Assembly (NCBI GenBank): GCA_003447785.1
Contig: DLYJ01000108.1
Span: 1-17,388, forward strand
From: Treponema sp.
GTDB lineage: Bacteria; Spirochaetota; Spirochaetia; Treponematales; Treponemataceae
Length of the DNA: 17,388 nt
Reading direction: 5' to 3'
Of this stretch, positions 1,228-16,846 are shown in pieces. A program made the position numbers and the translations under genes. Under the pieces are notes generated by a model. The model worked only from the letters and a program-made list of their open reading frames with translations. It did no database searches and was not told the origin of the DNA. How positions within the stretch are numbered: the first letter of the stretch is position 1; every line of letters starts with the position of its first letter.

Positions 1228-2295
1228 CTATACTTTACTGATTGCGTCCATTATTGTCTGTGCTGAGTTTTTATATGAATAACGCTCAGAAAGTCTTACG
1301 CGAGTTTTACTGTCTAATTCAACATCCTGAACCAGTTTGTCTGCCAAATCATTAAAATCCTGAACATGGAAAAAGGTTACCGGAAAATCTCCGTAAATTT
1401 CTTTAAAAACGGGAATGTCAGAAATGATTGCAGGAGTTCCGCACATCATTGCTTCCAGCGGCGGCATGCCAAAACCTTCGTACAATGACGGCTGTACAAG
1501 AACACGGCTCTTCTGATACAGTTTTTTTAATTCGGCATTTGAGATTTTACCCGTAAATTCAATTGAATCATCATTGTTTTTATCAAAATATTCAGTAACT
1601 TCCTGATCTCCGGTCCTGAAATTGTCCTTGTTTCCCACGATTACCAGCTTTGATTTTAAGCCTTTTTCCCTGGCAAGAGAAAATGCCTTGAGCAGTGTGG
1701 GAAGTCCCTTGTGTTTTTTTATGTTTCCCACAAATAAAATTATGTCCTCTTTTTGCGGTTTTTCTCCGGTTGAATCCAGTGAATCCAGCAGATATGACGG
1801 GGCAGAATTGTAAATGACTGTCAAAGGCTTTTTACAGTGCAGTTGTTTTTGAATTCTCTCTTTTGAAAAGTTTGAAACCGTAAAAATCTCTTTTGATTTA
1901 TTGATTGCCCTCTGGTAAATGATTTTTCTTGCAAGCCGGCCCAAGGTTCCTGTAAGGACGTCAACATCCAGAAAAACAATGTCGTGAATCGTACAGTAAA
2001 CCGGAATTTTAATTCCGTTGGGGATGTTGCAGTAGGGCGTAAAATATGCGTCGCAGGAATTGATTTTTTTGAGCATGTCTTTTGGAAAGAAAAGCATTTC
2101 CTTTAAGGAAAATGTTTTAATCTCGCACTCCAAAAATTCAACCTTTGGATTTGAAAGAAAGACCTGAGCCTGATTTTTTGAACCGATTAAAAGACATTTT
2201 TCGTAATGTGCGATAAAGTGGGGCAAAAGTTCGCTGATGAATGAACCGATTCCGCCTGAGCCAATCATTCTGATATCGATGGCAAGTCTGTTCAT
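1228..2295 (-). CDS. Glycosyltransferase family 4 (GT-B fold)
   Basis: Cytoplasmic GT-B retaining glycosyltransferase of 355 residues, a normal length for family GT4. The N-terminal acceptor domain opens with a glycine-rich turn (IGSGGIGSF, 11-19) and has HDIVFLD at 104-110. The C-terminal donor domain has LFVGNIKKHKGL (187-198) and the classic EX7E motif, Glu273 and Glu281 within YEGFGMPPLEAM, followed by CGTPAIISD. It presumably adds a sugar to the lipid-linked repeat unit started by the downstream glycosylphosphotransferase. The start codon overlaps the TAA of the preceding GT4 gene (TAATG, one shared base) and an AGGAT ribosome site sits at 2302-2306, so translation is probably coupled. 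Donor and linkage are not predictable here; many relatives are mannosyl- or rhamnosyltransferases. Confidence 0.9.
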   Translation of the reverse strand: MNRLAIDIRMIGSGGIGSFISELLPHFIAHYEKCLLIGSKNQAQVFLSNPKVEFLECEIKTFSLKEMLFFPKDMLKKINSCDAYFTPYCNIPNGIKIPVYCTIHDIVFLDVDVLTGTLGRLARKIIYQRAINKSKEIFTVSNFSKERIQKQLHCKKPLTVIYNSAPSYLLDSLDSTGEKPQKEDIILFVGNIKKHKGLPTLLKAFSLAREKGLKSKLVIVGNKDNFRTGDQEVTEYFDKNNDDSIEFTGKISNAELKKLYQKSRVLVQPSLYEGFGMPPLEAMMCGTPAIISDIPVFKEIYGDFPVTFFHVQDFNDLADKLVQDVELDSKTRVRLSERYSYKNSAQTIMDAISKV

Positions 2296-3431
2296 TATTT
2301 TATCCTGCTTCCAAAATCGGCGGTAACTTTATTGATGTGTTCAAGGAGCTCTTTTCTGAAACGTTCTGCAGAAAAGAATTTTGCGTGTTCAACTATTTTC
2401 TCAGAAACAAAAGTGCCTCTGTCAGAAAGTTCTTCAAAGTTTTTGATGGCAGCGCAGACACTTTCAGTTTCCTGTTTATCAAAGAAAACTCCGGTTACAC
2501 CGTCTTTTACGGTTTCCAGTGCGCCGCCCTTGCCAAAAGCAATTACGGGCCTTCCGCACGCCTGAACTTCAACAGGGATGATTCCAAAATCTTCTTCTGC
2601 GCTGAAAATCATAGCCTTGCAGCGCTGCAGATAATCCTGAACTTCAGCGTCGCTGATACGGCCGGTGAATTTTACATCGTCCGGGTGAGAACCAAATGCT
2701 TCTTTTGCAAGTGCTTTGAGTTCTGCTTCCTGGGAACCTGCGCCGATTACCACCAGTTTTTTTCCAAGTTTACCGCAGGCAGAAATAGCAAGATCGATTC
2801 TCTTGTATGGAACAAAGCGGCTGAAAACTACATAAAAATCTTCGCTTTCCTTATTATTTGGAGAAAGGCGTCCGGTATCTACAGGAGGGTAGATTACAGT
2901 TGAAGAAAGATTCCAGTATTTTTGAATGCGTCGTGCGATGTATTTTGAATTTGCGATGAGGCTGTCAATGCGTTGGGAAGAAATAAAGTCCCAGAGTCGG
3001 ATTGAAGGCATCCAGCGGTTCATAAAAAATCTGGTCAGTCTGCCGCTTCGTTTCCGGTATTCAAAAAACTGGTCCCAGGCATAACGCATGGGTGAGTGAA
3101 TATAGCAGATGTGGGGAACGTCCGGCGGGGTAATAACACCCTTTGCACATGAAGAAGACGAGCACAAAACTAAATCATAGCCTGAAAAATCAAAGGATTC
3201 GAAGGCTTTTGGCATCAAAGTGAGCAGTTTTGTATACAACCTGGTACTCATTGGAAGTTTTTGAACAAAAGATGTGTGAACTTTTTCTTTTGGAAAAATT
3301 TTTCCTATCTTTTTTTCATCATAAACGAGAGTATAAATATCAGCGTCCGGGTAGAGTTTGAGCATTTCTTCTACAACCCGTTCTGCGCCACCGTAATTTA
3401 CGAGCCAGTCGTGTACAATTGCAACTTTCAT
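2295..3431 (-). CDS. Glycosyltransferase family 4, WbaZ-like
   Basis: GT-B glycosyltransferase of 378 residues. It opens with MKVAIVHDWL and YGGAERVVEE (13-22), typical of the WbaZ-like branch of GT4, whose named members are mannosyltransferases. Further marks are CYIHSPMRYAWD (109-120), YPPVDTGR (181-188), the donor-domain segment FSRFVPYKRIDLAI (203-216) and the EX7E pair Glu280/Glu288 in EEDFGIIPVEVQACGRPV. It is followed by the second GT4 through a TAATG overlap and shares ATGA (3428-3431) with the upstream nucleotidyltransferase gene. An AAGGA ribosome site lies at 3441-3445. The protein probably extends the undecaprenyl-linked oligosaccharide in the cytoplasm. Mannose as donor is an inference from the subfamily only. 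Confidence 0.9.
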   Translation of the reverse strand: MKVAIVHDWLVNYGGAERVVEEMLKLYPDADIYTLVYDEKKIGKIFPKEKVHTSFVQKLPMSTRLYTKLLTLMPKAFESFDFSGYDLVLCSSSSCAKGVITPPDVPHICYIHSPMRYAWDQFFEYRKRSGRLTRFFMNRWMPSIRLWDFISSQRIDSLIANSKYIARRIQKYWNLSSTVIYPPVDTGRLSPNNKESEDFYVVFSRFVPYKRIDLAISACGKLGKKLVVIGAGSQEAELKALAKEAFGSHPDDVKFTGRISDAEVQDYLQRCKAMIFSAEEDFGIIPVEVQACGRPVIAFGKGGALETVKDGVTGVFFDKQETESVCAAIKNFEELSDRGTFVSEKIVEHAKFFSAERFRKELLEHINKVTADFGSRIK

Positions 3432-4987
3432 GCAAGAATTTCCTTTATTGCTTTAATCAGTGCGTCGTTTTCTTTTGGCAAGCGGACGCAGATATTCAAT
3501 TTGTCTTCGTTAACGCGAACGAGCATGTTGTAGGTGTCCAGAAGTTTTTCTGCAACTTTTTTAGCGTCAATCTTTGTCTGAACTGCGATAAAACTCATTC
3601 CGCCGGTTTGAATTTTTACTCCCTTGATTTTTGATAGGGCTTCGGAAAGGCGTTTGTATTCTTCGTTCATGCTTTTAAAGGACTGATTGTAGTCTTTTTT
3701 GTATTTTTCAAGAATCTGCATGCAGTATTCGGCAATTGAATTAACATTGTTTTCTGGTAGAAATGCGTTGATTGTCTGAACCAGTTCCTTGTTGCCGCAG
3801 AACAGGACTGCAAGTTTAACACCCGGAATTCCATATGCCTGGCCCAAATCCTTAAAGAAAATTGTGTCAGGATTGTCGTCCAGAAGTTTCTGCGTAATTT
3901 CTACAGGAGAGTCTGTCCAGTCAGAATATGTAATGTCAGCGTATGAAAGTTCTTCAGTGTCGTCAAACATACATTCAATGGAATCCATAAGGTTTTCAAT
4001 TGAATCTGAAACGGCAACGTTTTCCGGAAGAAGTTTGTAGAGCTTTGAAGCAAGAAGATTCTGCTGGAAGTGGCTTGACGGCTGACGCGTTACAAGGTCA
4101 GAAACTGATATATTCAATTCTTCCAGAAACTTTTTTGGCGGGAAGAATGCGTTTGCGCTGTTTGTAAAATCCGTAAGGCTCGGAAACCTCCAGGTTCCGC
4201 CGTCACGCTGTTCCATGAGCTTGAGCTTTCGGGAAGGTTTTGCGAAACGGCTTTCTGAAATGTTGAGGTCGGCAAAGTCATCGCTTTCATACCACAGGTC
4301 TCCGGAAACAGGAAGTGCCTTCAAAAGTTTTGGCTTAAGCATAATCAGCATTTTGAGCGTAGTTTCGTAGTATTCATTTTTGCCGAATACGCTCTGATAA
4401 GCTTCCAGGAGAGGCATATAAACGTCATTGATAAAGTCCTTACTGAACTTGTAGATGTTTACGGTTTTGTAATATGAATCAACCTCGGAGAATTTAAAGT
4501 GGTTTTTGTCGATAAGGGCAGTAACATTGTTTTCTTCGTCGATTGTAGTACAGGTTCCGTCCATCCACGGTTCAAAATGGCTTACAACAGCAACGTTCGG
4601 GTCTTCTGTTGCAACGAGCTGTTTAATGATTCTTTTGTCAAAGAAAAGATCACTTTCGAGAAGAATGGTGTCGTCCCGTTCAAAAAACTCACGGGCAAGA
4701 TAAAGTGAATAAATATTGTTTGTCTTGTCGTAAACAGGGTTTTCGGCAAATTCAATAGCCATTCCCTTAAGGCGTTTGTCGTCAAAGTTTGTAGCAATAT
4801 AATTTCTTAAAACATCAGCCTTGTAGCCCAGCCCGATAACAAGTTTTCTGATACCGGCAGCAACAAGAGCATCGATGGCATTTTCTATCATGGTAATTCC
4901 GTTAACCGGAACCATACATTTAGGAACACTGTCTGTAATCGGAGCAAGTCTGGAACCTGTTCCCGCAGCAAGAATAAGAGCCTGCAT
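3428..4987 (-). CDS. LicC-type nucleotidyltransferase fused to a degenerate class I/II aminotransferase domain
   Basis: Two-part protein of 519 residues. Residues 1 to ~245 are a sugar-nucleotidyltransferase-fold domain of the LicC/phosphocholine-cytidylyltransferase branch: LAAGTGSRLAPITDSVPKCM (6-25), NPVYDKTNNIYSLYLARE (83-100) and the metal-binding aspartate in LLESDLFFD (109-117). It probably activates a phospho-alcohol or phosphonate with CTP. Residues ~260-519 resemble HisC/CobD-like aminotransferases but are damaged: the usual Schiff-base lysine of SKxYGxPGLR is Gln383 (LGQAYGIPGVK), the following arginine is Lys391, the cofactor-site GNG motif appears as SDSIEN (327-332), and the central ~100 residues that carry NPTG are absent. 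The second domain is therefore probably non-catalytic. A strong GGAGG site (4994-4998) serves the start, which overlaps the preceding stop (TAATG). The T. denticola PntC fusion is an analogous but not identical arrangement. Confidence 0.85.
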   Translation of the reverse strand: MQALILAAGTGSRLAPITDSVPKCMVPVNGITMIENAIDALVAAGIRKLVIGLGYKADVLRNYIATNFDDKRLKGMAIEFAENPVYDKTNNIYSLYLAREFFERDDTILLESDLFFDKRIIKQLVATEDPNVAVVSHFEPWMDGTCTTIDEENNVTALIDKNHFKFSEVDSYYKTVNIYKFSKDFINDVYMPLLEAYQSVFGKNEYYETTLKMLIMLKPKLLKALPVSGDLWYESDDFADLNISESRFAKPSRKLKLMEQRDGGTWRFPSLTDFTNSANAFFPPKKFLEELNISVSDLVTRQPSSHFQQNLLASKLYKLLPENVAVSDSIENLMDSIECMFDDTEELSYADITYSDWTDSPVEITQKLLDDNPDTIFFKDLGQAYGIPGVKLAVLFCGNKELVQTINAFLPENNVNSIAEYCMQILEKYKKDYNQSFKSMNEEYKRLSEALSKIKGVKIQTGGMSFIAVQTKIDAKKVAEKLLDTYNMLVRVNEDKLNICVRLPKENDALIKAIKEILA

Positions 4988-6249
4988 TAGTTGCCTCCAT
5001 CCGTTAATTCTTTTTCTTTGGCAATCATAAAGTCTGCAATCTTTTCACCGGCTTGTCCAATGTACATCCATGCTTCAGCCTTAGCCTGTGCGCGCGCTTT
5101 AGACAGGGGTTCTGAGTCAGAGGCATTTTGAATTACTTCCCGGATATTGGCAAACTGTTTTTCTTTAAGTTCAATACCGATTTTTTCCAGGGTAGTGAAC
5201 TGCCAGATTCGTTTTGGAGAGCCGTCCGGATTATAAACTTCGCTTGCATCATACATTCTCAGGTCAAGTTGGGCGTTTACATACATGACCGGTTTGTCAC
5301 AGAGGAATGTGTAGTCATAAATTACGGAACTAAAGTCACTAATCATGATATCTGCCCGTTTAAGGGCGTAAATATTGTCGCGGTCGTAGTTCCATTCAAG
5401 ATTTTTTGCATCTTTATATTTTTCCGTGAGTCTGTTCAAAAGTTCAGCTTCAGATTTTTTTGACTGCGGGTGAGGGCGGATAATAATATGCCAGCCTGTA
5501 GCAAGAAGCGGGTCAATGAGTTTTTCGCCATATTTTGAAAGGATTGCACTCGGTCCCCAGGATGGAGAAAGCAAAACCGTAAACTGATGATTTTCTTCAG
5601 CAGGAATTGCTTCCATCTTCTTTTTAAGTTCATCAAGATAAGTGCAGCCTACGGTAACAAGTTCCTTTTCTTTTACACCTCGTGCTTTTTCAAGATAGCG
5701 TATGTCATCTTTCTGGTAATCTCCGGTAAGCAGAACTGAATCCCAGTAATCAAGACCAAAAAGACGGTACATGGTTGCATCTCCTGAACCGTGTCGAACA
5801 TGTGCATAGTGCTTAACGGTTTTTGACCGCTTCATCTGGTATACATCAAGACCAGGAGTTGTCATGAGTACGATGTCTGCATCAAGCATATTCAGGCGGG
5901 CAAATGCCGGGTTTCCTTCTCCAATGTATTCGGCCTTTACATATTTGTATTCGGCTTCAAAAATCGGGTCTTCTTTGTATGAAGTAAAGTAGGTAATTTC
6001 AGTCTGGCGGCCTTCAAAAGCGTCCAGAACAGGCTTAAATACGTTACAGTACTGTTTTCCTTCGTTGTAGATTACATAATGCTTTCGGCCTGCTTTTAAC
6101 GCTTCGCGAGCCTTTCTTCCGCTGAACAAAACCTGAAGTTTAAGCCACGCAGCTTTTGCAAGAAAGAACAGTGTTGCGGCAGCTCCGATAAAAACGGAGA
6201 ACAGCATGCTTCCCGTACCGGGATCTATGTAAAGTGGTAAAATCATCAT
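4987..6249 (-). CDS. CDP-glycerol glycerophosphotransferase-like protein (TagB/TagF family) with N-terminal membrane anchor
   Basis: Protein of 420 residues related to enzymes that transfer alditol-phosphate from CDP-alditol to a lipid-linked acceptor (teichoic acid type chemistry). It begins with LYIDPGTGSML (6-16) and a single membrane span to ~residue 32, a prelude I recognise from proteins of polysaccharide clusters. The catalytic part has HYAHVRHGSGD (137-147), the region GLDYWDSVLLTGDYQ (155-169), IIRPHPQS (246-253, His250) and ISDFSSVIYDYTFLCDKPVMY (start 293), the usual CDP-binding signature of the family. The first of two tandem ATGs (6249) is chosen because GGAG lies 8 nt upstream (CTCC at 6258-6261). 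It shares ATGA with the large fusion gene before it and TAATG with the cytidylyltransferase gene after it, so a CDP-activated substrate supplied next door is plausible. The true substrate is unknown. Confidence 0.85.
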   Translation of the reverse strand: MMILPLYIDPGTGSMLFSVFIGAAATLFFLAKAAWLKLQVLFSGRKAREALKAGRKHYVIYNEGKQYCNVFKPVLDAFEGRQTEITYFTSYKEDPIFEAEYKYVKAEYIGEGNPAFARLNMLDADIVLMTTPGLDVYQMKRSKTVKHYAHVRHGSGDATMYRLFGLDYWDSVLLTGDYQKDDIRYLEKARGVKEKELVTVGCTYLDELKKKMEAIPAEENHQFTVLLSPSWGPSAILSKYGEKLIDPLLATGWHIIIRPHPQSKKSEAELLNRLTEKYKDAKNLEWNYDRDNIYALKRADIMISDFSSVIYDYTFLCDKPVMYVNAQLDLRMYDASEVYNPDGSPKRIWQFTTLEKIGIELKEKQFANIREVIQNASDSEPLSKARAQAKAEAWMYIGQAGEKIADFMIAKEKELTDGGN

Positions 6250-8960
6250 TTTTGAATCTCCTGCTGCCAGTTTTCGCTTTTAAAGATATTGCCTTTTACA
6301 CGGTACCAGTGATCTTTTTCGGCTGTAAAGTAATATTCACTTTTGTTATGGTAAGGCATAAAAATGTCATCTATACAAACAAGTGCTCCATCAGCCTTTT
6401 TGCTTGAGTCCAAAGGGTTACCTGTTGCCGGATTGACCGGTTTCTCAACGATTCCCCTTGTAAGTAGAGCTGGTGCGTCGGCATTTGTCATAAAATCATC
6501 GTTTATGACAAGATTTCCACTGGAATCAAAATCTTTGAACATGAGCAGAGGATGATAACGGCCAGGACGGATTATTTCAAACTTTTCGTCCCATTCATAG
6601 CCGTCTTCTTTGCCGTTGGCTCCATGGTCTGCTGCAAGTACAATCCTTGTGTTGTCATAGCAACCGTTTTCCTTTAAGAAATCAAGCCATTCACCGACAC
6701 GGAGCATAGCTCCTGCAAATGAATGGTAGTCTTTTTTGTTTTTGTATTCGCTGGTACCAAAATCAGTTACCTTCGATACCGGGCGATACTCAGGTGCCTG
6801 CAAAAACAGATTGTCGTGTGTGGTATTGTTTATCAGGTTGATGTAAGTGTTTTTTGTCTTGCTTTCAAAGTCAGAGAATTCAATCGCATAGTCGAGAACT
6901 GAATATCCGTCCAGATAGTCATTGTAGTCGTCTGTGGCTGTATTGGTCGACCAGTAATTGCCGTCGTTGTAAAAGGCAGGACGAAGTACAAGTGGAGCAA
7001 CTTTAAAGAATGAGTACCAGAGAATATTTCTTTTGAGGGAAGAACTTACAACATCAATCTTTGCTGTATCCTGATGATCTTTGTACCAGCGGTCAGTATA
7101 AACACCGTCTGTAAGATATGCAGAGATATTCTTGTCTTTGTATTCATCAAAAATCGAGATATCCGGAATCCAGCTGTAGTTTGCCCATGAAGGGTCTGTA
7201 ATTACAGCAGAATAGTCTTTTGCCTGCTCAGTAAAAAATCTTGGAAGAGTACGTAAAGCTTCGTTTGTCTTATCTACCAGTTTTTCTTTAGACCGGCTGT
7301 TCATGGCCTCTGGGGTGTATTCGTAGCCACCAAAACATGGAGGAGAACCAATAAGTGTATGTGAGTTGAATGAGAGAGTGTTACGGTAGAAAGTAAATCC
7401 CGAGAACTGAGAGTTCAGTTGAGGGCATTCTTTAAATAGCGGTTCAACATACTGAGCCTGAGCCCTGTCAAGATAAATGTAAAGTACATTCTGACCGGTT
7501 TTTGAAAAATGGAATATCTTTTTAAGATTGCTACAACTTTTATCGGAGATAAGTTTTTTCTCCTGGTAAGACTTGTACCCATTATTGATAGTACTTATGT
7601 TTGTGAATGACAAAACTAAAATCCCGACGCAGAAAATTGCCATTACGGAGGTAAGATGTTTTGAGAATTTTGACCTGAGAATGAGTAGAAAAGCAAATAT
7701 AAGTGCAGTAATAGAAAGAAGGTTTAACAGAATAGAAGATAAACTTGAATCTACACTGGTAACGTCGGTAAATTTTAAAAGTTTGCTGAGTGTTCCGTAG
7801 TCTCCCGGAAAAATAAAAGCGTTCAGCAGGGCTGAGCCAAAAATAAATGCAAGGAAAGCTGCAATCAGAGTCTGCATGCGTTCTTTGTAGAGGAAGAATA
7901 TCAGAGAACACCAGATAATAAAGAATCCAGCTGCCTGAACAAAGGTGTTTTTGATAAAGACAAGGGGGCTTCCGAATCCGTCAATTCCTGAAAATTCCTC
8001 AGGAGAAGAAGAAACAAGAAGGGTTGGAATCAAAAGACCCACCAGAAGTGTAAGACCGATTGCGCTTACGGTAAAAAGGGAAGTTCGGATTTTTCGGGAA
8101 TCCCTTAAGACTGCAAGTGTTTTGTCGATAAGATGGTTTGCGGCTTTAACATAAAGTGGAGCCGGATAAATGAGAGCAAAGCAAAAAGATACGAGTAACG
8201 CTCTTTTGAATGCCAGGGTGTGTGAAGCGAAAATCCAGATTATGAATACGGTAACAAGTGTACAGGCAATGTAATAAAGAACTTTTACAGGATGCTTCAT
8301 CTTGTAAAAAACATTTTTTACAAGAGAGAAGAGGTTGTTCATGGTCCAATACATTACAAGTCCTGCAGGGCTGTCGTACAGAATTACAACAAAGAGCAGA
8401 GCCAGTCCATAGGTCTGGATTTTGTCACGAAGTGGAAGTCCTCTGGTGTAAATGGTGCCCGAAATCATGTTGATTAAGGTCATTGCAATTGGAAGAACAT
8501 TTACAGTAAATGCTCCGATTGTAAAAAGAGCGTCCGGAGCGCCCATATCCCGGATAAAAAGGAATTGTTTTCCCTGCAAGGCACTCATGTTAGAAAGACA
8601 TGTATATGCGGCTGTAAAGAAAGGAATCTGAATCAAAAGTCCGAATGCGGAACGCAGTGACATAATCGGGTGATAGTGATTCTGGCGGTAATATGTGGAA
8701 AGAATCATGTACTGTTCGTTTCCTTTGAATACAGCCTTGATTTTATCAACTTCGCCCTTCATTTTTTTCTGAATGTCGCGTTCAACCTGTTGCCAGTGCT
8801 CGGCTACGATGTAGAGGGGAAGGGTTAAAAGAGAAACAGCGGCACTAACGCCTAAAATGGCGATACCCGTGTTGTCAAACAGTTTTTTGCAAAAAGTAAA
8901 AACAAGCTCAATAATCTGTGTGAGGGGATAAATCACCAGACTGAAAAATGCACTATCCAT
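6246..8960 (-). CDS. YidC/Oxa1-like membrane domain fused to an LtaS-like sulfatase-fold domain
   Basis: Protein of 904 residues from ATG 8960. Residues ~5-225 are YidC/Oxa1-like: IYPLTQIIEL, a first core helix ending LLTLPLY, a charged hairpin loop, FGLLIQIPFFTAAYTCLSNM and the final-helix signature SPAGLVMYWTMNNLFSLVKN. The arginine essential in the YidC groove is replaced by Ser43 (AAVSLLTLPLY). About seven or eight more hydrophobic segments follow (~230-455), then an extracytoplasmic alkaline-phosphatase/sulfatase-fold domain (~485-904): metal Asp498 in YIYLDRAQ, a Thr535/Ser539 nucleophile region (SHTLIGSPPCFGGYEYTP), NNTTHDN (His725), AADHGANG (Asp778, His779) and RYHPLLMF (His803). Lipid-dependent phosphotransferases such as LtaS and EptA have this latter architecture, so it may transfer a phospho-group to a surface polymer. 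A TTG at 8978 would add six residues; no Shine-Dalgarno supports either start, while a promoter at 8967-8995 fits the ATG. Confidence 0.85.
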   Translation of the reverse strand: MDSAFFSLVIYPLTQIIELVFTFCKKLFDNTGIAILGVSAAVSLLTLPLYIVAEHWQQVERDIQKKMKGEVDKIKAVFKGNEQYMILSTYYRQNHYHPIMSLRSAFGLLIQIPFFTAAYTCLSNMSALQGKQFLFIRDMGAPDALFTIGAFTVNVLPIAMTLINMISGTIYTRGLPLRDKIQTYGLALLFVVILYDSPAGLVMYWTMNNLFSLVKNVFYKMKHPVKVLYYIACTLVTVFIIWIFASHTLAFKRALLVSFCFALIYPAPLYVKAANHLIDKTLAVLRDSRKIRTSLFTVSAIGLTLLVGLLIPTLLVSSSPEEFSGIDGFGSPLVFIKNTFVQAAGFFIIWCSLIFFLYKERMQTLIAAFLAFIFGSALLNAFIFPGDYGTLSKLLKFTDVTSVDSSLSSILLNLLSITALIFAFLLILRSKFSKHLTSVMAIFCVGILVLSFTNISTINNGYKSYQEKKLISDKSCSNLKKIFHFSKTGQNVLYIYLDRAQAQYVEPLFKECPQLNSQFSGFTFYRNTLSFNSHTLIGSPPCFGGYEYTPEAMNSRSKEKLVDKTNEALRTLPRFFTEQAKDYSAVITDPSWANYSWIPDISIFDEYKDKNISAYLTDGVYTDRWYKDHQDTAKIDVVSSSLKRNILWYSFFKVAPLVLRPAFYNDGNYWSTNTATDDYNDYLDGYSVLDYAIEFSDFESKTKNTYINLINNTTHDNLFLQAPEYRPVSKVTDFGTSEYKNKKDYHSFAGAMLRVGEWLDFLKENGCYDNTRIVLAADHGANGKEDGYEWDEKFEIIRPGRYHPLLMFKDFDSSGNLVINDDFMTNADAPALLTRGIVEKPVNPATGNPLDSSKKADGALVCIDDIFMPYHNKSEYYFTAEKDHWYRVKGNIFKSENWQQEIQK

Positions 8961-8966
8961 ATTTTT

Positions 8967-8995
8967 ATAATAGTGCAAAACAGAGGAAGTTACAA
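8967..8995 (-). promoter_or_regulatory. Putative sigma70 promoter for the YidC/sulfatase fusion gene
   Basis: On the minus strand, TTGTAA (8990-8995) and TATTAT (8967-8972) are separated by exactly 17 bases. The -10 box ends 6 nt before the ATG at 8960, so transcription would start at or next to that ATG. This would give a leaderless transcript, in line with the absence of a Shine-Dalgarno sequence here. It would be an internal promoter of the leftward unit. It rests on consensus matching only. Confidence 0.45.
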
Positions 8996-9005
8996 CTAAA
9001 GAGAA

Positions 9006-9341
9006 CTAAATTACGAAGATGAGAATGCCTGAAAGAATCATGATCATTGCGATGATTTTCCGTTTTGAAAACTGTTCCTTGAAGAAGATTTTTCCAAAAA
9101 TGAGTACGAAAATATAACTTGACGCCTCCGCTACTGGTACAAAGGAGACTGGAACTTTTTTTAGGGCAAGTAAATCAAGAAAAACTGCTAGAAAATAAAT
9201 TGCATATGCCGAAAGAACATAGACGTTTAGATATTCCTGCCAAAATGAACCGTAGCTCCTAAGGGCTGATTTTTTGAGCAGGACCTGAGAAAAGGCGGAG
9301 ATAAAAACAGAAAATAGCAGAATAAAAATAGAGAACTTCAT
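9006..9341 (-). CDS. EamA/SMR-type small membrane transporter subunit (ArnE/ArnF-like), second of pair
   Basis: Very small inner-membrane protein of 111 residues with four predicted hydrophobic segments (about 3-20, 40-62, 65-85, 94-111). The first helix ends in AFSQVLLKKSA, a pattern common to EamA/SMR half-transporters, and the third helix region has PVAEASSYIFVLIFG followed by FFKEQFS, typical of the family. The membrane-embedded glutamate of drug-exporting EmrE (in helix 1) is absent, which favours a lipid-sugar flippase role like ArnE/ArnF over drug efflux. It shares ATGA with the preceding small gene and has its own GAGGAG site (9350-9355); the two products probably form a heterodimer. 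Candidate role (inference): moving an undecaprenyl-phosphate-linked monosaccharide across the membrane for the GT2/GT-C genes nearby. Confidence 0.8.
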   Translation of the reverse strand: MKFSIFILLFSVFISAFSQVLLKKSALRSYGSFWQEYLNVYVLSAYAIYFLAVFLDLLALKKVPVSFVPVAEASSYIFVLIFGKIFFKEQFSKRKIIAMIMILSGILIFVI

Positions 9342-9712
9342 TGTGAGTTCTCCTCTTTTTCTGTACTCAAAAGAAAAATACCCGAAAGAATCAGGATGGT
9401 GCCAAGAAGCATTTTTAAGGATACTTTTTCTTTAAAAAATAAAAAGCCAAAAATCATTCCCCAAACAATGGTTATAGACTTGTTCGCTATGGCAGTTGAG
9501 AGAGAATAACGCTTTAAAACCTGCTGCCACAACAAGGCATAGACCGCAAGCACGGCAAAAACCAGACAGTAGAGGGCAATAAAGGGAAGGGAAAGTACTT
9601 CATAGCGGCTAGCAAATTTACCGATGAGTGGATAGATTGTATAAACCAAAAAGGCAAGATGCATGAAGAGGAAAGAAAAGAAGTTGTGATTGTGGCTCTG
9701 TACTGAACTCAT
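9338..9712 (-). CDS. EamA/SMR-type small membrane transporter subunit (ArnE/ArnF-like), first of pair
   Basis: Inner-membrane protein of 124 residues with four hydrophobic segments (about 11-32, 40-62, 72-92, 99-116). It contains the family-typical stretch LSTAIANKSITIVWGMIFGF followed by LFFKEKVSLKMLLGTILILS. Helix 1 lacks the proton-coupling glutamate of SMR drug exporters. It is the first gene of the leftward unit and overlaps its partner by four bases. The start is ATG 9712; no Shine-Dalgarno is visible and a strong promoter lies immediately upstream, so translation from a very short leader is likely. Probably one half of a heterodimeric lipid-sugar flippase; the substrate is unknown. Confidence 0.78.
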   Translation of the reverse strand: MSSVQSHNHNFFSFLFMHLAFLVYTIYPLIGKFASRYEVLSLPFIALYCLVFAVLAVYALLWQQVLKRYSLSTAIANKSITIVWGMIFGFLFFKEKVSLKMLLGTILILSGIFLLSTEKEENSQ

Positions 9713-9863: not shown

Positions 9864-11015
9864 ATGATTCCTTTCAATGTTCCTCCAGTAACTGGCAATG
9901 AAACAAAATATATTCAGAAAGCAATCGAAAATCACAAAATCTGCGGTGACGGTGAATTTACAAAAAAATGTCACGAGTGGTTTGAGCATAAGCTAAATTC
10001 TGTTAGGGGGGGGCTAACACCCTCAAAAGTCCTTCTTACCACAAGCGGAACGACAGCCCTTGAAATGGCGGCACTTCTCTGCGATATAAAGCCTGGGGAC
10101 GAGGTAATAATGCCGTCCTTTACTTTCTGTTCCACAGCAGATGCCTTTGTTCAGCGGGGAGCTACAATCGTTTTTGTTGATGTCCGTTCCGACACTATGA
10201 ACATTGACGAAAATAAAATCGAACGGGCAATTACAGAAAAGACAAAGGCAATCTGCGTGGTTCATTATGCAGGAGTTGCCTGTGAAATGGACGCGATTAT
10301 GGATATTGCCCGCCGCCACAGCCTTAAAGTCGTTGAGGATGCCGCTCAGGCTGTCTGCTCTTTTTACAAGGGAAAGCCTTTGGGAACAATCGGAGACTTC
10401 GGCTGTTTTTCTTTCCATGAGACAAAGAATTTTTCCATGGGCGAAGGCGGTGCGGTCATCATCAATACAGGAAATGCTGATTTTGAAAAGGCTGAGATTA
10501 TCCGTGAAAAAGGCACTGACAGAAGCCGCTTCCTTCGCGGACAGGTGGACAAATATACCTGGCGGGATTACGGCTCATCTTACCTTCCAAGCGACATGAA
10601 TGCGGCCTATCTCTGGGCACAGCTTGAAAAAGCCGATGACATTCAGAATTCCCGAATGAATGTTTGGAACAAATATAAGGAAGCCTTTGCAGCTTTGGAA
10701 AAAGACGGAAAAATCCGTCTTCCTGCAATTCCAGAAGACTGCACTCACAACGCCCACATGTTCTATCTCATTACAAAAAATCTTGAAGAGCGGACAAAAT
10801 TCATTTCATTCATGAAAGAAAAAGACATTCTCGCAGTTTTCCATTACATTCCGTTGCATTCGGCTCCTGCCGGACTGAAATTCGGTCGTTTTGATGGCGA
10901 AGATGAAATCACCACAGCCTATTCAAAGCGTCTTGTCCGTCTTCCCCTTTATTACGGGCTTACAGATGAAGACCAAAACAAGGTCATTGACGCGGTCCTG
11001 GAGTTCTACAAATGA
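9864..11015 (+). CDS. wecE: dTDP-4-amino-4,6-dideoxygalactose aminotransferase (WecE/RffA)
   Basis: PLP-dependent sugar aminotransferase of the DegT/DnrJ/EryC1/StrS family, 383 residues. It converts dTDP-4-keto-6-deoxyglucose to dTDP-Fuc4N using glutamate as amino donor. It closely resembles E. coli WecE as I recall it: MIPFNVPPVTGNE start, ICGDGEFTKKC, LEMAALL, PGDEVIMPSFTF, HYAGVACEMD (134-143), VVEDAAQAV (156-164, PLP Asp159), the Schiff-base Lys188 in SFHETKNF, and the late motif AVFHYIPLHSAPAG. Unlike E. coli it seems to carry about eight extra residues at ~46-53 (SVRGGLTP), encoded across an 8-G run. GGAG at 9849-9852 supports the ATG. It overlaps the following GT2 gene by four bases. 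The dTDP-glucose pathway genes that make its substrate are not in the window. Confidence 0.92.
   Translation: MIPFNVPPVTGNETKYIQKAIENHKICGDGEFTKKCHEWFEHKLNSVRGGLTPSKVLLTTSGTTALEMAALLCDIKPGDEVIMPSFTFCSTADAFVQRGATIVFVDVRSDTMNIDENKIERAITEKTKAICVVHYAGVACEMDAIMDIARRHSLKVVEDAAQAVCSFYKGKPLGTIGDFGCFSFHETKNFSMGEGGAVIINTGNADFEKAEIIREKGTDRSRFLRGQVDKYTWRDYGSSYLPSDMNAAYLWAQLEKADDIQNSRMNVWNKYKEAFAALEKDGKIRLPAIPEDCTHNAHMFYLITKNLEERTKFISFMKEKDILAVFHYIPLHSAPAGLKFGRFDGEDEITTAYSKRLVRLPLYYGLTDEDQNKVIDAVLEFYK
10006..10013 (+). repeat. Homopolymeric G(8) tract inside wecE
   Basis: Eight consecutive G residues encode the end of Arg48 and Gly49-Gly50. The tract is flanked by GTTAG (10002-10006) and CTAAC (10014-10018), which can pair as a small hairpin around it. 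Loss of one G brings TAA into frame immediately after the tract; gain of one G leads to TGA about 18 codons later. Either change would inactivate the enzyme, so this is a candidate slipped-strand (phase-variation) site. Confidence 0.6.
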
Positions 11016-11971
11016 GCGTGAATCAAGAAAAACAGAAAGAAATCAGCATCGTAATTCCAGTCTACAACAGCCACGAGTGCGTCGCAGAACTCAGCCGTCA
11101 GATTGCGGACTCTCTCGGCTCGGCAGGAATCAGCTATGAGCAGATTATGGTAAACGACTGTTCGAGAGACTCCAGCTGGGAGGAAATCAAAAAAGAGTCG
11201 GAGAAAAATCCCAATCTTCTAGGAATCAACCTGCGGAAAAACGGCGGACAGGACTCTGCCATCCTCACTGGCTTGAACTACACCAGCGGAAAGTGGATTG
11301 TCATTATGGACGATGATTTGCAGCATTCGCCCTACGACATTCCTAAACTTTACGAGGAAGCAAAAAAAGGCTTTGATGTGGTCTACGCCAATTTTGAGGC
11401 AAAAAAACAGAAACTCTGGAAAAATCTCGGAAGCTGGTTCAACGGAAAAATTAGCGAGATTGCCCTGGACAAGCCAAAGGGAATTTATCTTTCCCCTTTT
11501 AAAATCCTGAATGGCGAAGTCGTTAAGGAAATGTGCAAATTCAATAATTTGTTTCCTTATATTGACGGTCTGATTTTTCAGGTAACAAGAAATATCACAC
11601 AGATTGACATTGAGCACCACAAGCGGGAACTGGGAAAGTCCAACTACAACCTGGTTAAATCGATAAAAGTCTTTTTGCGCATGCTTTTCGGCTTCTCCAC
11701 CATGCCATTGAACCTTGCGTCCTTTACAGGATTTTTTAGTGCGGCGGTGGGACTTGTGCTTGCCATTGTCTATGCGGTGCAGTATTTTACCGGCAAGACG
11801 GACGTCACCGGCTGGACTACGCTCGTAATCCTTCTTCTGATTCTGGGCGGACTCATTCTTGTATCTCTTGGAATCATCGGAAAGTACCTCGGGCAGGTAT
11901 ACCTTACGGTAAACAAGCAGCCCAAGTTTATTGTGAAAGAAACGACAACGAATAACACTGGAGAGAGATAA
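11012..11971 (+). CDS. GT2 undecaprenyl-phosphate glycosyltransferase (ArnC/GtrB/DPM1-like)
   Basis: Family 2 glycosyltransferase of 319 residues with the layout of ArnC/GtrB: an N-terminal GT-A domain and two C-terminal membrane spans (about 230-258 and 269-290). Visible motifs are ISIVIPVYNS (11-20), VNDCSRDSS (47-55), the metal-binding DDD (100-102) in IMDDDLQHSP, and EHHKRELGKSNY (201-212), the late basic motif of this subgroup. Such proteins load one sugar from a nucleotide donor onto undecaprenyl phosphate on the inner membrane face. The start overlaps the wecE stop (ATGA) with GGAG at 11000-11003, so the two are translationally coupled; the WecE-derived amino-sugar is a candidate donor (inference). 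Its DNA is visibly GC-richer than neighbouring genes. Confidence 0.88.
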   Translation: MSVNQEKQKEISIVIPVYNSHECVAELSRQIADSLGSAGISYEQIMVNDCSRDSSWEEIKKESEKNPNLLGINLRKNGGQDSAILTGLNYTSGKWIVIMDDDLQHSPYDIPKLYEEAKKGFDVVYANFEAKKQKLWKNLGSWFNGKISEIALDKPKGIYLSPFKILNGEVVKEMCKFNNLFPYIDGLIFQVTRNITQIDIEHHKRELGKSNYNLVKSIKVFLRMLFGFSTMPLNLASFTGFFSAAVGLVLAIVYAVQYFTGKTDVTGWTTLVILLLILGGLILVSLGIIGKYLGQVYLTVNKQPKFIVKETTTNNTGER

Positions 11972-13898: not shown

Positions 13899-15686
13899 TT
13901 AACGCTTTTCAATCAGTTCTTCTTTGAAAACTCTGAAGCCGTTTTCGTCTTTTACATGGGTAAGATACCAGAAACTTCCTGTGCAGATTTCTTCTGCCTG
14001 TTCTTCCGTATCTGAAAAATAGACTGACTGATTGTCTTTCAGATACGGAAGAACAGATGGATAAACACAATCGTGGCTGATAACGATGGGATTTTCTTCG
14101 TCTTTGAGGAATTCTGCATTAAGCACCGCTTCATCGGCATCGTTCAAATGTCTGATTTTTGTGAAATTCTGCTGCGATGGAAAGACATTTTTTAGCGTCA
14201 AAAGCACAACGCAGAGTTGAAGAGCATAGACAGCATATCGCAAGCCTTTCTTATTTGTGTCAATAATCAGAGAAAAAGAAAGCAAGGGGAAAACTGGGGC
14301 AACATAGCGGAGTGCTTTCAGCGGAGAAATATACAGCACGAGAAAACAGAATAGTAATGAACAGGCGAAAATGACAGTGTGGGTTGCATTCTCTGTTTTA
14401 TTTCTGATGCAAAGAAATCTTCCAGCAGCTGCAAAAATAATCATTACTATCAGATTGAACATATTTTCTGAAACAAAGTCATTAAGTTTAAGAATTGTGT
14501 ATGTGAAATTTTTTAATGCGGAATTCCCAATTTCAGAGAAAGCCTCTGCTCCTCTGCCTGCAAAAAAACCAGTTCCATAATTCAAATAGAAACATTTCGT
14601 CAAAAGTAATCCCGTGAAAACTGTACAAAGCAAAAAAAGAGACAGGTTATACTCTTTTTTGCGTATTGAAAGATACAAAAGTACAAGCCCAAGAATACCA
14701 AGGTAGAGCACAGAGAAATAATCCGTGGAGAAGAGGACTGCACAGACAATGCTTGTACGAATAAAGTTCGTTTTGGTCGTGATTTCTCTATCTGACTTTA
14801 TGTTTTTATAATAAAACACAAACAGGTATGTGAACAGAATTAATACTGTTTCCTGCAACGCATACGAGCGCATGAAAACAGAAAGACCGATAGTGGTAGG
14901 ATTCAAAAAGGCGAAGGTAATGAGCAGGACCTTTGTTAGCTTATTGTCTGTTAATTCAGAAATCAGCAAATAGAAGAAATAAAATGCGATGCAGAAGAAA
15001 ATAAAATTCAGTAGTCCTGCGCGGATAAATGTCGTCTTAAAATCTGAGGACTTGAAGCCCGTGAACCAGATTCGGGAAAGGTATATGAACAGATTGTTGT
15101 ATGCGGTGTCCTTGTTGTAAACCCAGAGGTGTAATAAATCTCTGACAGTGTCTTTTATTGATGCATCGTCAAAGAAAATTGCGTCTTTGATTTCTTTTCC
15201 GGTATATAACCGTCCTTTCTCAAAATCTTTTCCGCTCCATAAGCCGTATTCATTTTGTGTGACGATGGATATTCCATACATCTCGTCAATATGGAATGTT
15301 TGCTTTTGGTTCAGCCAGTAAAAACGAATCCCTGAAATGGTCAAAAAAAGCATAAGAAGAACGAGTGTATATCTGCTCATCTTTCTGTTTTCACAGACGG
15401 GATGTACAGTGAAAGTGGGCGTGTTTTCTTTGTCAACATTTGAGAATTTGACAAAATTGAGTAGAATAAAGAGCGCTCCGAATACTGTGAACAGAATAAT
15501 ATTCCCATAAAGAACACCTTTAAGCTTTGCAAGTTTCGCAATGGTGAGATTGGGCTTAAATGTTTTGAGAACATCAAGAATTCTTACGGCAATCAAGTCA
15601 GTGCATGCACAGAGAAATGCGATGGCAATGAGGAAACTGATGACAGAAAGGACTGTAAGTATGATTCGTTTTTTTGTATTAGTCAT
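13899..15686 (-). CDS. GT-C glycosyltransferase-like integral membrane protein
   Basis: Integral membrane protein of 595 residues with about eleven or twelve hydrophobic segments. A TM-flanked loop carries FHIDEMYGIS with the acidic pair Asp134-Glu135, matching the catalytic loop-1 motif of GT-C enzymes such as ArnT and PMT; further on, LKALRYVAPVFPLLS resembles the family's RY..P.FP element. The last ~110 residues are soluble and probably extracytoplasmic. The chosen start at 15686 shares ATGA with the upstream glycosyltransferase gene and has GGAAC at normal spacing; an ATG at 15725 would overlap that gene by 43 bases and is less likely. It is expected to move a sugar from a polyprenyl-phosphate carrier to an external acceptor. 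Donor and acceptor are unknown. Confidence 0.75.
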   Translation of the reverse strand: MTNTKKRIILTVLSVISFLIAIAFLCACTDLIAVRILDVLKTFKPNLTIAKLAKLKGVLYGNIILFTVFGALFILLNFVKFSNVDKENTPTFTVHPVCENRKMSRYTLVLLMLFLTISGIRFYWLNQKQTFHIDEMYGISIVTQNEYGLWSGKDFEKGRLYTGKEIKDAIFFDDASIKDTVRDLLHLWVYNKDTAYNNLFIYLSRIWFTGFKSSDFKTTFIRAGLLNFIFFCIAFYFFYLLISELTDNKLTKVLLITFAFLNPTTIGLSVFMRSYALQETVLILFTYLFVFYYKNIKSDREITTKTNFIRTSIVCAVLFSTDYFSVLYLGILGLVLLYLSIRKKEYNLSLFLLCTVFTGLLLTKCFYLNYGTGFFAGRGAEAFSEIGNSALKNFTYTILKLNDFVSENMFNLIVMIIFAAAGRFLCIRNKTENATHTVIFACSLLFCFLVLYISPLKALRYVAPVFPLLSFSLIIDTNKKGLRYAVYALQLCVVLLTLKNVFPSQQNFTKIRHLNDADEAVLNAEFLKDEENPIVISHDCVYPSVLPYLKDNQSVYFSDTEEQAEEICTGSFWYLTHVKDENGFRVFKEELIEKR

Positions 15687-16846
15687 TTTATCAGTTCCAA
15701 GAATTTTGCGGTAATATTCTCCCATTTCCGTTCAGATAAATCAAAAGAATAACCGCAAGATTTTTGCTCAATTGCTTTGCGAACTGCTGCAATAAAATCA
15801 TCGTAAGTGTAAGTGACTGTGACTCCCGCGTCAGTTAGTTTTGGCGTGTCGCAGTATGCTACGATCGGCTTTTTTGCCGCCATTGCCTGATAATATTTCG
15901 CCGTAATCCCCAGCGGGCGATTCTTATAGAAATCCGTAACATACGGCACCATGACGACCGAGCAATTTGTAATCCACGCAGGCACGTCTTTTGGCGGAAT
16001 ACCCGGAACATAAAAGAAATTTTTGCAAGTCTTTACTTTTTCCTGTATCTCCGCGCTCGGATAATTAGGGCAAACGACAATGTAATTAAAATTTTCGTCC
16101 GCATCTGCCGCCTTAAAAAGCAAATCCCATTCCACTTCCCACGCACCGACATACAGTACCGTGTTTCCTTTTTGCAAAAGCTCTGGAACCGGATATTTTT
16201 TCTCATAGCTTTCGATGTCAACGCCATTAGAAAGGAGCGTGTATTTTATCGTTCTGTCAAAATCTGGAATCTTGCGTTTGTATAAATCCAGCCCTTCCTG
16301 ATTTACGATTATGTTCAAATCGGCTTTTTTCATCATATGCGTTTCATTTTTGACATAGCGGCTCAAAGCACCATCATACATGAGCGGGTCGCTTGGGCGG
16401 TAAATCATTTTTGCGTTCGGGTACATTTTTTTGAGCTGATCAACAAAAATCATTCCGTCAGAACTTTCAAAAACAAAAACGTCCGTTCCGTCAAACCATT
16501 TTTTTGCAAACTTTTTGAACGATGCAAAAGAAAAACGCTCCAGAGCATTCATCATGCCGTCAGAAAGAATCTTGTTTGCACTGTTAGGAAGCTTGAAGGT
16601 TGGGAAGGTGATGTTTGTAAGAGACTGCCCGGCAACTTCATATTTAATTCCTTTCTGCAGCTCTTTTATTGTTTTGTAATTGTAAAGCTCTTGATGCATA
16701 AAATAGCTGTAATAAGGGCGGGGAAAACTGAAAAAGACAACTTCAATTCCTGCATTGCAGGCCGCTTCCGCAAATTTATGAAAGCCCCCCAGTCGGTTTG
16801 ACTTCCAGTTATGTCCGGTAATGAAGTTTATTTTTTTTAATGACAT
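15683..16846 (-). CDS. GT-B glycosyltransferase (GT1/GT4-like, possibly GumK/TuaH-related)
   Basis: Soluble glycosyltransferase of 387 residues. The N-terminal acceptor domain starts NFITGHNWKSNRLGGFHKFA (7-26) and VVFFSFPRP (36-44), reminiscent of GumK-like glucuronosyltransferases. The donor domain has LLSNGVD (204-210), VLYVGAWEVEW (230-240) and NRPLGITAKYYQAMAAKKPI (309-328), a stretch like that of TuaH-type enzymes. It lies one base after the stop of ugd, whose product is UDP-glucuronate, and has an AAGGG ribosome site. Together these make a uronic-acid transferase a reasonable hypothesis, but neither donor nor linkage is shown by the sequence. It is coupled by ATGA to the GT-C gene after it. 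Confidence 0.8.
   Translation of the reverse strand: MSLKKINFITGHNWKSNRLGGFHKFAEAACNAGIEVVFFSFPRPYYSYFMHQELYNYKTIKELQKGIKYEVAGQSLTNITFPTFKLPNSANKILSDGMMNALERFSFASFKKFAKKWFDGTDVFVFESSDGMIFVDQLKKMYPNAKMIYRPSDPLMYDGALSRYVKNETHMMKKADLNIIVNQEGLDLYKRKIPDFDRTIKYTLLSNGVDIESYEKKYPVPELLQKGNTVLYVGAWEVEWDLLFKAADADENFNYIVVCPNYPSAEIQEKVKTCKNFFYVPGIPPKDVPAWITNCSVVMVPYVTDFYKNRPLGITAKYYQAMAAKKPIVAYCDTPKLTDAGVTVTYTYDDFIAAVRKAIEQKSCGYSFDLSERKWENITAKFLELIK

Follow-up and report, generated by a model that had tools for sequence, protein, structure and literature searches.

A YidC-like module fused to an LtaS/EptA-like catalytic domain, with a TagF-like partner: a candidate system for decorating bacterial surface sugars

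What does a module of the membrane-insertase family do when it forms the first part of an enzyme? The question is raised by a 17,388-nucleotide stretch of DNA from Treponema sp. (contig DLYJ01000108.1 of GenBank assembly GCA_003447785.1; this whole stretch is referred to as the window), in which a gene that we call FUS joins a YidC/Oxa1-like module to a catalytic domain resembling those of LtaS and EptA, beside a second gene, GLY, for a TagF-like transferase. On balance, we favor the reading that FUS transfers headgroups at the outer face and, together with GLY, decorates surface glycans; for the machinery by which small phosphate or phosphonate groups are joined to sugars of the bacterial surface, FUS with its partner is a good candidate. 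A preliminary description of the window, made from the sequence alone, had proposed a lipid-dependent phosphotransferase with a repurposed YidC; it was right in outline and is partly supported, but it missed additional transmembrane (TM) helices, the size of the family, the partner, and the link to phosphonate synthesis.

FUS occupies an open reading frame (ORF) at 6246–8978 on the minus strand, encoding 910 amino acids (aa) from a TTG codon with zero internal stops. A relative with 97% identity is 904 aa long, which points to the ATG at 8960 as the probable start, in agreement with the preliminary description; residue numbers below follow the 910-aa frame, and subtracting 6 gives those of the preliminary description (Ser49 is its Ser43). 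The single continuous frame described there, running from YidC/Oxa1 signatures to a sulfatase-fold domain, is indeed uninterrupted and contains the motifs quoted, and the searches proposed there gave the following results. Pfam 60KD_IMP matches residues 38–225 well above its cut-off (E = 1.3e-18, 68 bits against 35), and Sulfatase falls under its own (E = 2.3e-4, 21 bits against 25). The AlphaFold2 model (mean pLDDT 91.3, pTM 0.79) matches the Bacillus halodurans YidC structure 3wo6 in Foldseek with a TM-score of 0.74 (by target length) and a root mean square deviation (rmsd) of 3.6 Å over 223 columns, and its residues 494–910 match LtaS-type folds. A frameshift or other artefact was rejected as an explanation of the fusion, since 237 of the 240 homologues among the matches listed are longer than 800 aa.

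In the model, about seven further TM helices, two in a linker and five beyond it, lie between the YidC module and the catalytic domain (Table 1). LtaS and EptA carry five TM helices ahead of their catalytic domain, the same number as the last five in the FUS model. Because the two linker helices and the five at residues 295–481 also precede the catalytic domain, the YidC module looks, in the predicted structure, like an extra module and not the sole membrane platform. Of the earlier proposal that a YidC-derived module had been recruited to an LtaS/EptA-type phosphotransferase, the module without its insertase charge stands and a role in lipid handling is plausible, but its part as the only membrane platform is not supported by the model.

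Like the YidC/Oxa1 insertases, FUS has the five-TM YidC fold and conserved YidC core positions, but it lacks their basic groove residue. In a sequence alignment, Ser49 falls on the groove arginine of B. halodurans YidC (presumably residue 72). Among 238 aligned members (the window's FUS and the 237 of the 240 homologues listed that remained after three at ≤800 aa were left out), the position is Ser in 112, Thr in 103, Asn in 18, Val in two, Gly in one, and a gap in two; Arg or Lys occurs in none. None of the 29 fusions found by a whole-protein genome search has Arg or Lys there, and any Arg or Lys elsewhere in TM1 (residues 40–57) is present in just three of the 238. None of the findings named beforehand as telling against the description (no YidC match, a frameshift, or an arginine nearby) was obtained. 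Because the separate canonical YidC encoded in the window's genome has Lys at the groove position, the feature lost is the positive charge and not arginine as such. Two basic residues are newly conserved, Arg109 and Lys221 (R/K in 238/238 for the latter); both are at the ends of helices, where they are expected to be on the cytoplasmic side.

It is highly improbable that the module remains a dedicated insertase for GLY, for the helices of FUS itself, or for proteins of the glycan locus: clear as the YidC fold and core positions are, none of the 238 members keeps the basic residue of the groove, and the window's genome has a canonical YidC with Lys at another locus. Nor is FUS the housekeeping copy, given that separate YidC and the fact that 196 of 247 sampled Spirochaetota genomes have no FUS match at E ≤ 1e-60; unlike the insertases, it is part of an enzyme and is accessory, not universal. 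Judged by its sequence, the YidC module is apparently no longer an insertase.

The module is nevertheless the most conserved part of the protein. Over 3379 pairs with less than 35% overall identity, mean identity is 41% in the YidC module, 23% in the catalytic domain, and 15% in the five-TM part, with the module above the catalytic domain in 3378 pairs; it also contains 26 of the 43 columns that are at least 95% conserved. The homologue search was biased to the first 500 residues, so the comparison was repeated on the 29 fusions from the whole-protein search, giving 50% for the module against 32% for the catalytic domain, and a higher value for the module in all 253 pairs below 40% identity. 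Constraint of this kind would not be expected of a mere anchor. Either a passage for lipid or a docking site for GLY would fit a YidC module kept without its groove charge. Lipid scrambling in vitro by Escherichia coli YidC and yeast Oxa1 is described in PMC10491306, and in simulation every Oxa1-family insertase tested scrambled lipids.

The catalytic domain belongs to the alkaline phosphatase superfamily, and, as in LtaS, LtaP, EptA, MCR, and PbgA (YejM), it is predicted to lie at the outer face with a Thr nucleophile and Asp/His metal ligands. In Foldseek, residues 494–910 match LtaS, LtaP, MCR, and PbgA as well as phosphonate monoester hydrolases, with many sulfatases matching equally well; the PbgA alignment (6xlp) covers model residues 292–910 but at an rmsd of 15.8. 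The nucleophile is Thr in 237 of the 238 members and Ser in one, and His721 is kept in 233. The Thr, Asp, and Asp-His set of FUS corresponds to the Thr, Glu, Asp, and His active-site sets of EptA and LtaS in the portion of PMC7576196 that describes them, with the difference that FUS has Asp504 where Glu is listed for those enzymes. An identity as a formylglycine sulfatase or phosphonate monoester hydrolase was considered and rejected. The formylglycine sulfatase nucleophile motif is Cys/Ser-x-Pro/Ala-x-Arg, and FUS is not such an enzyme because Arg at +4 of the nucleophile occurs in 0 of 238 members.

EptA and LtaS draw their headgroups from bulk phospholipids, and FUS might do the same. It would then be an ordinary enzyme of this type, using phosphatidylethanolamine or phosphatidylglycerol, with the YidC module as a structural scaffold and GLY separately decorating or polymerizing a glycan precursor inside the cell. 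This agrees with an active-site set identical to that of EptA/LtaS and with LtaS as the best phosphotransferase match of a whole-family profile (4uoo, E = 4.9e-8), but a scaffold would not be expected to show the highest conservation of all modules, and the near-perfect pairing with GLY and the gene runs with CMP-headgroup pathways, both described below, would be left unexplained; we regard it as unlikely. Compared with LtaS/EptA, FUS adds the N-terminal YidC module and two linker helices, pairs with a TagF-like enzyme, and is linked to CMP-headgroup synthesis.

GLY matches PF04464 at 37.9 bits (cut-off 22.1), and its model has a GT-B fold (pLDDT 90.8). The top two Foldseek matches were TagF with CDP-glycerol (E = 2.1e-11), then Bcs3 with CMP; in VIA-align, UDP-GlcNAc 2-epimerases stood level with TarL/TagF. 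No close sequence relative of GLY was found in the PDB, the best being Bcs3 (E = 0.0018). GLY thus shares family and fold with the TagF/TarL/Bcs3 CDP-alditol transferases but differs in its length of about 420 aa, its conserved motif near the N-terminus, and its single predicted TM helix. The motif, Y-I/L-D-P-G-T-G, is near-invariant in 50 aligned GLY proteins from several phyla (Y7, D9, P10, and L16 invariant; G11, T12, and G13 nearly so) and stands just before the single predicted TM helix. It spans residues 6–17 of the window's GLY (about 6199–6234), and might be a signature of proteins that have the YidC module as a partner.

FUS and GLY co-occur almost strictly. Among 97 genomes of relatives, scored with thresholds of E ≤ 1e-40 for FUS and E ≤ 1e-30 for GLY (no best match lies between those thresholds and about 1e-20), 53 have both, three only FUS, one only GLY, and 40 neither (Fisher p = 1.7e-22); the three with only FUS are 72–83% complete, and in the one with only GLY, that gene is a fragment where its contig ends. 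In the 247 Spirochaetota, 48 have both, three only FUS, one only GLY, and 195 neither (p = 2e-46). All four exceptions fall outside the high-quality set of 181 genomes, in which the identical 43 hold both and 138 neither. The preliminary description had raised the question of whether such fusions always sit beside CDP-alditol phosphotransferases: the association is strong. GLY is the next ORF to FUS on the same strand in 50 of 73 best-scoring loci and within two ORFs in 57; where GLY is missing (15 loci), six of the loci are fragments shorter than 6 kb.

This pairing could also mean that the YidC module moves no lipid and instead permanently receives the one TM helix of GLY, which is N-out, tying the cytoplasmic enzyme to the outer transferase domain. 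Short N-out single-span proteins are typical YidC clients, and both the near-strict co-occurrence and the near-invariant motif right before the predicted helix agree with docking of this kind; FUS copies, however, outnumber GLY in 27 of 55 loci; another 27 have as many of one as of the other, and a single locus has fewer FUS than GLY. The excess of FUS fits one charged carrier serving several acceptor-specific transferases. We consider docking as the sole role of the module possible, though rather doubtful.

What the pair moves is suggested by neighboring supply genes. In 26 of 76 loci, members of one cluster of LicC/PntC-like nucleotidyltransferases (29 ORFs, some of them checked) are no more than six ORFs away from FUS. 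Besides the window's own, 26 fused versions were found (some taken twice), of at least three kinds by alignment of the pyridoxal phosphate (PLP) site: PntC-AEPT, as in locus L031, which matches PDB 6pd1 (E = 2.8e-280), an entry that we take to be the T. denticola enzyme; LicC with a CobD/serine-phosphate-decarboxylase-like domain, as in L042, which matches 6oux (E = 7e-38); and LicC with another aminotransferase-like domain, as in L024. The supply sets linked to FUS comprise phosphoenolpyruvate (PEP) mutase, Ppd, and PntC-AEPT, for CMP-aminoethylphosphonate; PEP mutase (PepM), Ppd, and an Fe-type alcohol dehydrogenase (Fe-ADH), whose product we infer; and LicC fused to serine/threonine-phosphate-decarboxylase-like domains. 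Serine-phosphate decarboxylase chemistry would underlie phosphoethanolamine- and aminopropanol-phosphate-like products.

A PEP mutase query matches 28 of the 97 relatives; in one, G047, the match covers only the cytidylyltransferase part, so that 27 are counted. All 27 have GLY (p = 3.9e-9) and 26 have FUS (p = 4.9e-7); in the remaining one, GLY is only a fragment, next to PEP mutase where the contig ends. The distance from PEP mutase to GLY is at most 200 bp in 11 and at most 15 kb in 16, with three farther apart on the same contig and eight on another contig. In a set of 20 loci hand-chosen from the 76, the genomes of 12 encode PEP mutase. Contiguous runs are PepM-Ppd-FeADH-GLY-FUS in Neptunomonas qingdaonensis, PepM-Ppd-FeADH-GLY-FUS-FUS in Draconibacterium, and FUS-GLY-PepM-Ppd-PntC/AEPT in L027, a genome of the window's own genus (Ppd being called there by position and similarity, and PntC-AEPT by alignment with L031). 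In one spirochaete, PepM, Ppd, and FeADH lie together with GLY and a weakly matching FUS; in a Lachnospiraceae genome, a stretch of about 9 kb contains FUS, Ppd, GLY, a LIC match, and PepM.

Because the adjoining supply genes point to small units, the GLY/FUS pair most likely moves groups such as aminoethyl- or hydroxyethyl-phosphonate or phosphoethanolamine-like groups. The same linkage disfavors the earlier suggestion of polymer threading, in which an alditol-phosphate chain would pass through the YidC groove for the outer domain to finish. The TagF-like nature of GLY speaks for that route, but the products of the linked pathways are small units, aminated or hydroxylated; threading lacks direct support, and the idea is the least probable of those weighed here. 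Other observations count against a tie between FUS and phosphonates. PEP mutase has no match in the window's own assembly (75% complete) and none in 30 of 56 FUS genomes, and the PepM cluster lies apart from FUS in T. putidum, a metagenome-assembled genome of T. brennaborense, and several Clostridia. LicD was tried as the general transferase of phosphonate genomes and rejected, being present in 27 of the 97 genomes and seven of the 27 with PepM, with no association (p = 1.0).

According to PMC6697681, PntC makes CMP-aminoethylphosphonate, the T. denticola enzyme being among those characterized, and the steps of the Pnt (phosphonyl tailoring) pathway that follow C–P bond formation are called enigmatic. 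PepM, Ppd, and PntC-AEPT of that pathway adjoin GLY and FUS in several lineages, but that paper names LicD-like phosphotransferases and glycosyltransferases; neither YidC nor sulfatase occurs in its main text or in the phosphonate-producer papers PMC8931226 and PMC11546328. No published report of a fusion of YidC with a sulfatase domain was found in a literature search that left out most subscription journals. FUS and GLY make the surface-phosphonate transfer step testable and, if our reading is true, are candidates for the step that is missing from cell-surface phosphonate synthesis.

We infer a route of four steps. A cytidylyltransferase would make CMP- or CDP-linked small headgroups, at some loci a 2-aminoethylphosphonate or hydroxyethylphosphonate-type group and at others phosphoethanolamine/aminopropanol-phosphate-like or choline-like groups. 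At the inner face, GLY would load the phospho- or phosphono-headgroup onto a membrane carrier. A crossing of the membrane is needed because GLY has the fold to act inside, with CMP/CDP donors, and FUS the active site to act outside; the carrier would get across by way of the YidC module or alongside it, and this module may also dock the single TM helix of GLY. Finally, the LtaS/EptA-like domain would take the headgroup on Thr541 and pass it to a sugar of the surface glycan.

A bolder version, which we hold tentatively and with the odds against it, is that a YidC-type groove has been turned from protein tails to lipid headgroups, so that GLY and FUS form a relay that charges, carries across, and transfers phospho- or phosphono-ethanolamine-type groups. 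Three-component systems for sugars on undecaprenyl phosphate (Und-P), of the ArnC/ArnT or GtrA/B/C type, charge a lipid inside, flip it, and transfer outside. The proposed GLY-FUS logic would be the same, but with phospho- or phosphono-headgroups and with the flipping and transfer parts fused. If the lipid-path reading of the groove is true, FUS represents a new class of flippase-transferase fusion; if the general scheme is true, the family shows a natural case of an Oxa1-family fold that handles lipids and does not insert proteins, and forms a modular system of surface decoration in which the neighboring genes allow the headgroup to be guessed.

The family extends well beyond the window. FUS is present at E ≤ 1e-60 in 51 of the 247 Spirochaetota genomes, and members also occur in Clostridia, Bacteroidota, Desulfovibrio-type bacteria, and Neptunomonas; a lone rumen oddity is accordingly rejected. 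The homologue search used words from the first 500 residues, scored the 7994 candidates sharing most words, and returned 2311 proteins at E ≤ 1e-3, the weaker of which may be plain YidC; the 120 among the matches listed are 755–962 aa long and all carry PF02096. A second search, from a distant member, reached proteins of Salinivirgaceae, Desulfovibrio, and Treponema denticola. The genome scan by YidC motifs, with the best 80 kept, gave the 76 loci, which are the best-scoring and not a random sample; they include Treponema putidum OMZ 758, Ruminococcaceae AB4001 and YRB3002, and N. qingdaonensis. A fusion ORF of at least 800 aa was picked in 73 (L071, L076, and L101 had none), and some loci were taken twice from one genome (e.g., L041/L044 and L042/L043). 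Where database names are given, many FUS members are called YidC insertases, a naming that hides an enzyme family.

A version of the enzyme without YidC was also sought, and no clean family was recognized among six proteins examined of 120 matches listed. These proteins without PF02096, from a length-limited search, start at differing points, P0315 inside the YidC module; P0326 (591 aa, on a 41.7-kb contig, database name LTA synthase) is a possible YidC-less candidate. Two partial FUS matches (G016:C125 and G047:C191) sit near contig ends.

Table 1. Location of FUS, its parts and key codons, and neighboring genes in the window
Feature	Position	Strand	Basis or remark
FUS, YidC-LtaS/EptA-like fusion gene	6246..8960	-	904 aa from ATG (910 aa from TTG at 8978)
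YidC/Oxa1-like module, residues 10-228	8295..8951	-	Pfam 1.3e-18; Foldseek 3wo6; most conserved module
Linker, ~2 TM helices, residues 229-291	8106..8294	-	Helices in model
Five TM helices (295-323, 339-363, 366-388, 413-435, 439-481)	7530..8105	-	Model
Outer-face alkaline-phosphatase-superfamily catalytic domain, residues 494-910	6249..7499	-	Foldseek, profile matches
Ser49 codon, insertase groove Arg/Lys position	8832..8834	-	Alignment: S/T/N 233/238, R/K 0/238
Arg109 codon, family-specific basic residue, start of TM2	8652..8654	-	R/K in 235/238
Thr541 codon, putative catalytic nucleophile	7356..7358	-	Thr in 237/238
Asp784-His785 codons, putative metal site with Asp504 (7467-7469)	6624..6629	-	Each 238/238
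GLY, TagF-like CMP/CDP transferase, GT-B domain	4987..6249	-	PF04464, model, Foldseek
LicC/PntC-like cytidylyltransferase with serine/threonine-phosphate-decarboxylase-like domain lacking the PLP lysine	3428..4987	-	Domain search, alignment
Two small EamA-type proteins, directly upstream of FUS	9006..9712	-	Weak ArnE/ArnF flippase-half likeness, below NCBIfam cut-offs
Two GT4-type glycosyltransferases, downstream (surface-glycan context)	1228..3431	-	Domain search

In the aminotransferase-like domain of the window's own cytidylyltransferase fusion (3428–4987), DLGQ replaces SISK, and the protein is about 85–95 aa shorter than relatives of that kind; its relative in L107 also lacks the PLP lysine (SMAL). 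From these sequences, a dead enzyme domain seems to have been kept in the protein.

Other genes of the window add to the glycan context. A glycosyltransferase at 11012–11971 on the plus strand resembles ArnC/PgfS, below the NCBIfam cut-offs, and together with the EamA-type pair (Table 1) could, by sequence likeness, form a possible set for the flipping and transfer of an Und-P-sugar. A WecE-type dTDP-4-amino-4,6-dideoxy sugar transaminase, well over its NCBIfam cut-off, is encoded at 9864–11015 on the plus strand, and an aminodideoxy sugar is therefore probably part of the glycan of this locus. The ORF at 13899–15725 (minus strand) has a weak match to the LA_3751/LA_3752 putative glycosyltransferase family (36 bits, cut-off 200).

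Multiplication of the fusion is pronounced in some lineages. The T. putidum locus L049 (1177–13746) has tandem fusion paralogues, several split into separate ORFs, beside a full-length copy of 952 aa, a possible case of decay or variation of paralogues. In one spirochaete genus of the phylum sample (g54, family f22), genomes mostly have several matches to the fusion profile and usually a single GLY; some of these matches are two pieces of one gene, and one genome gave 21 first-look candidates.

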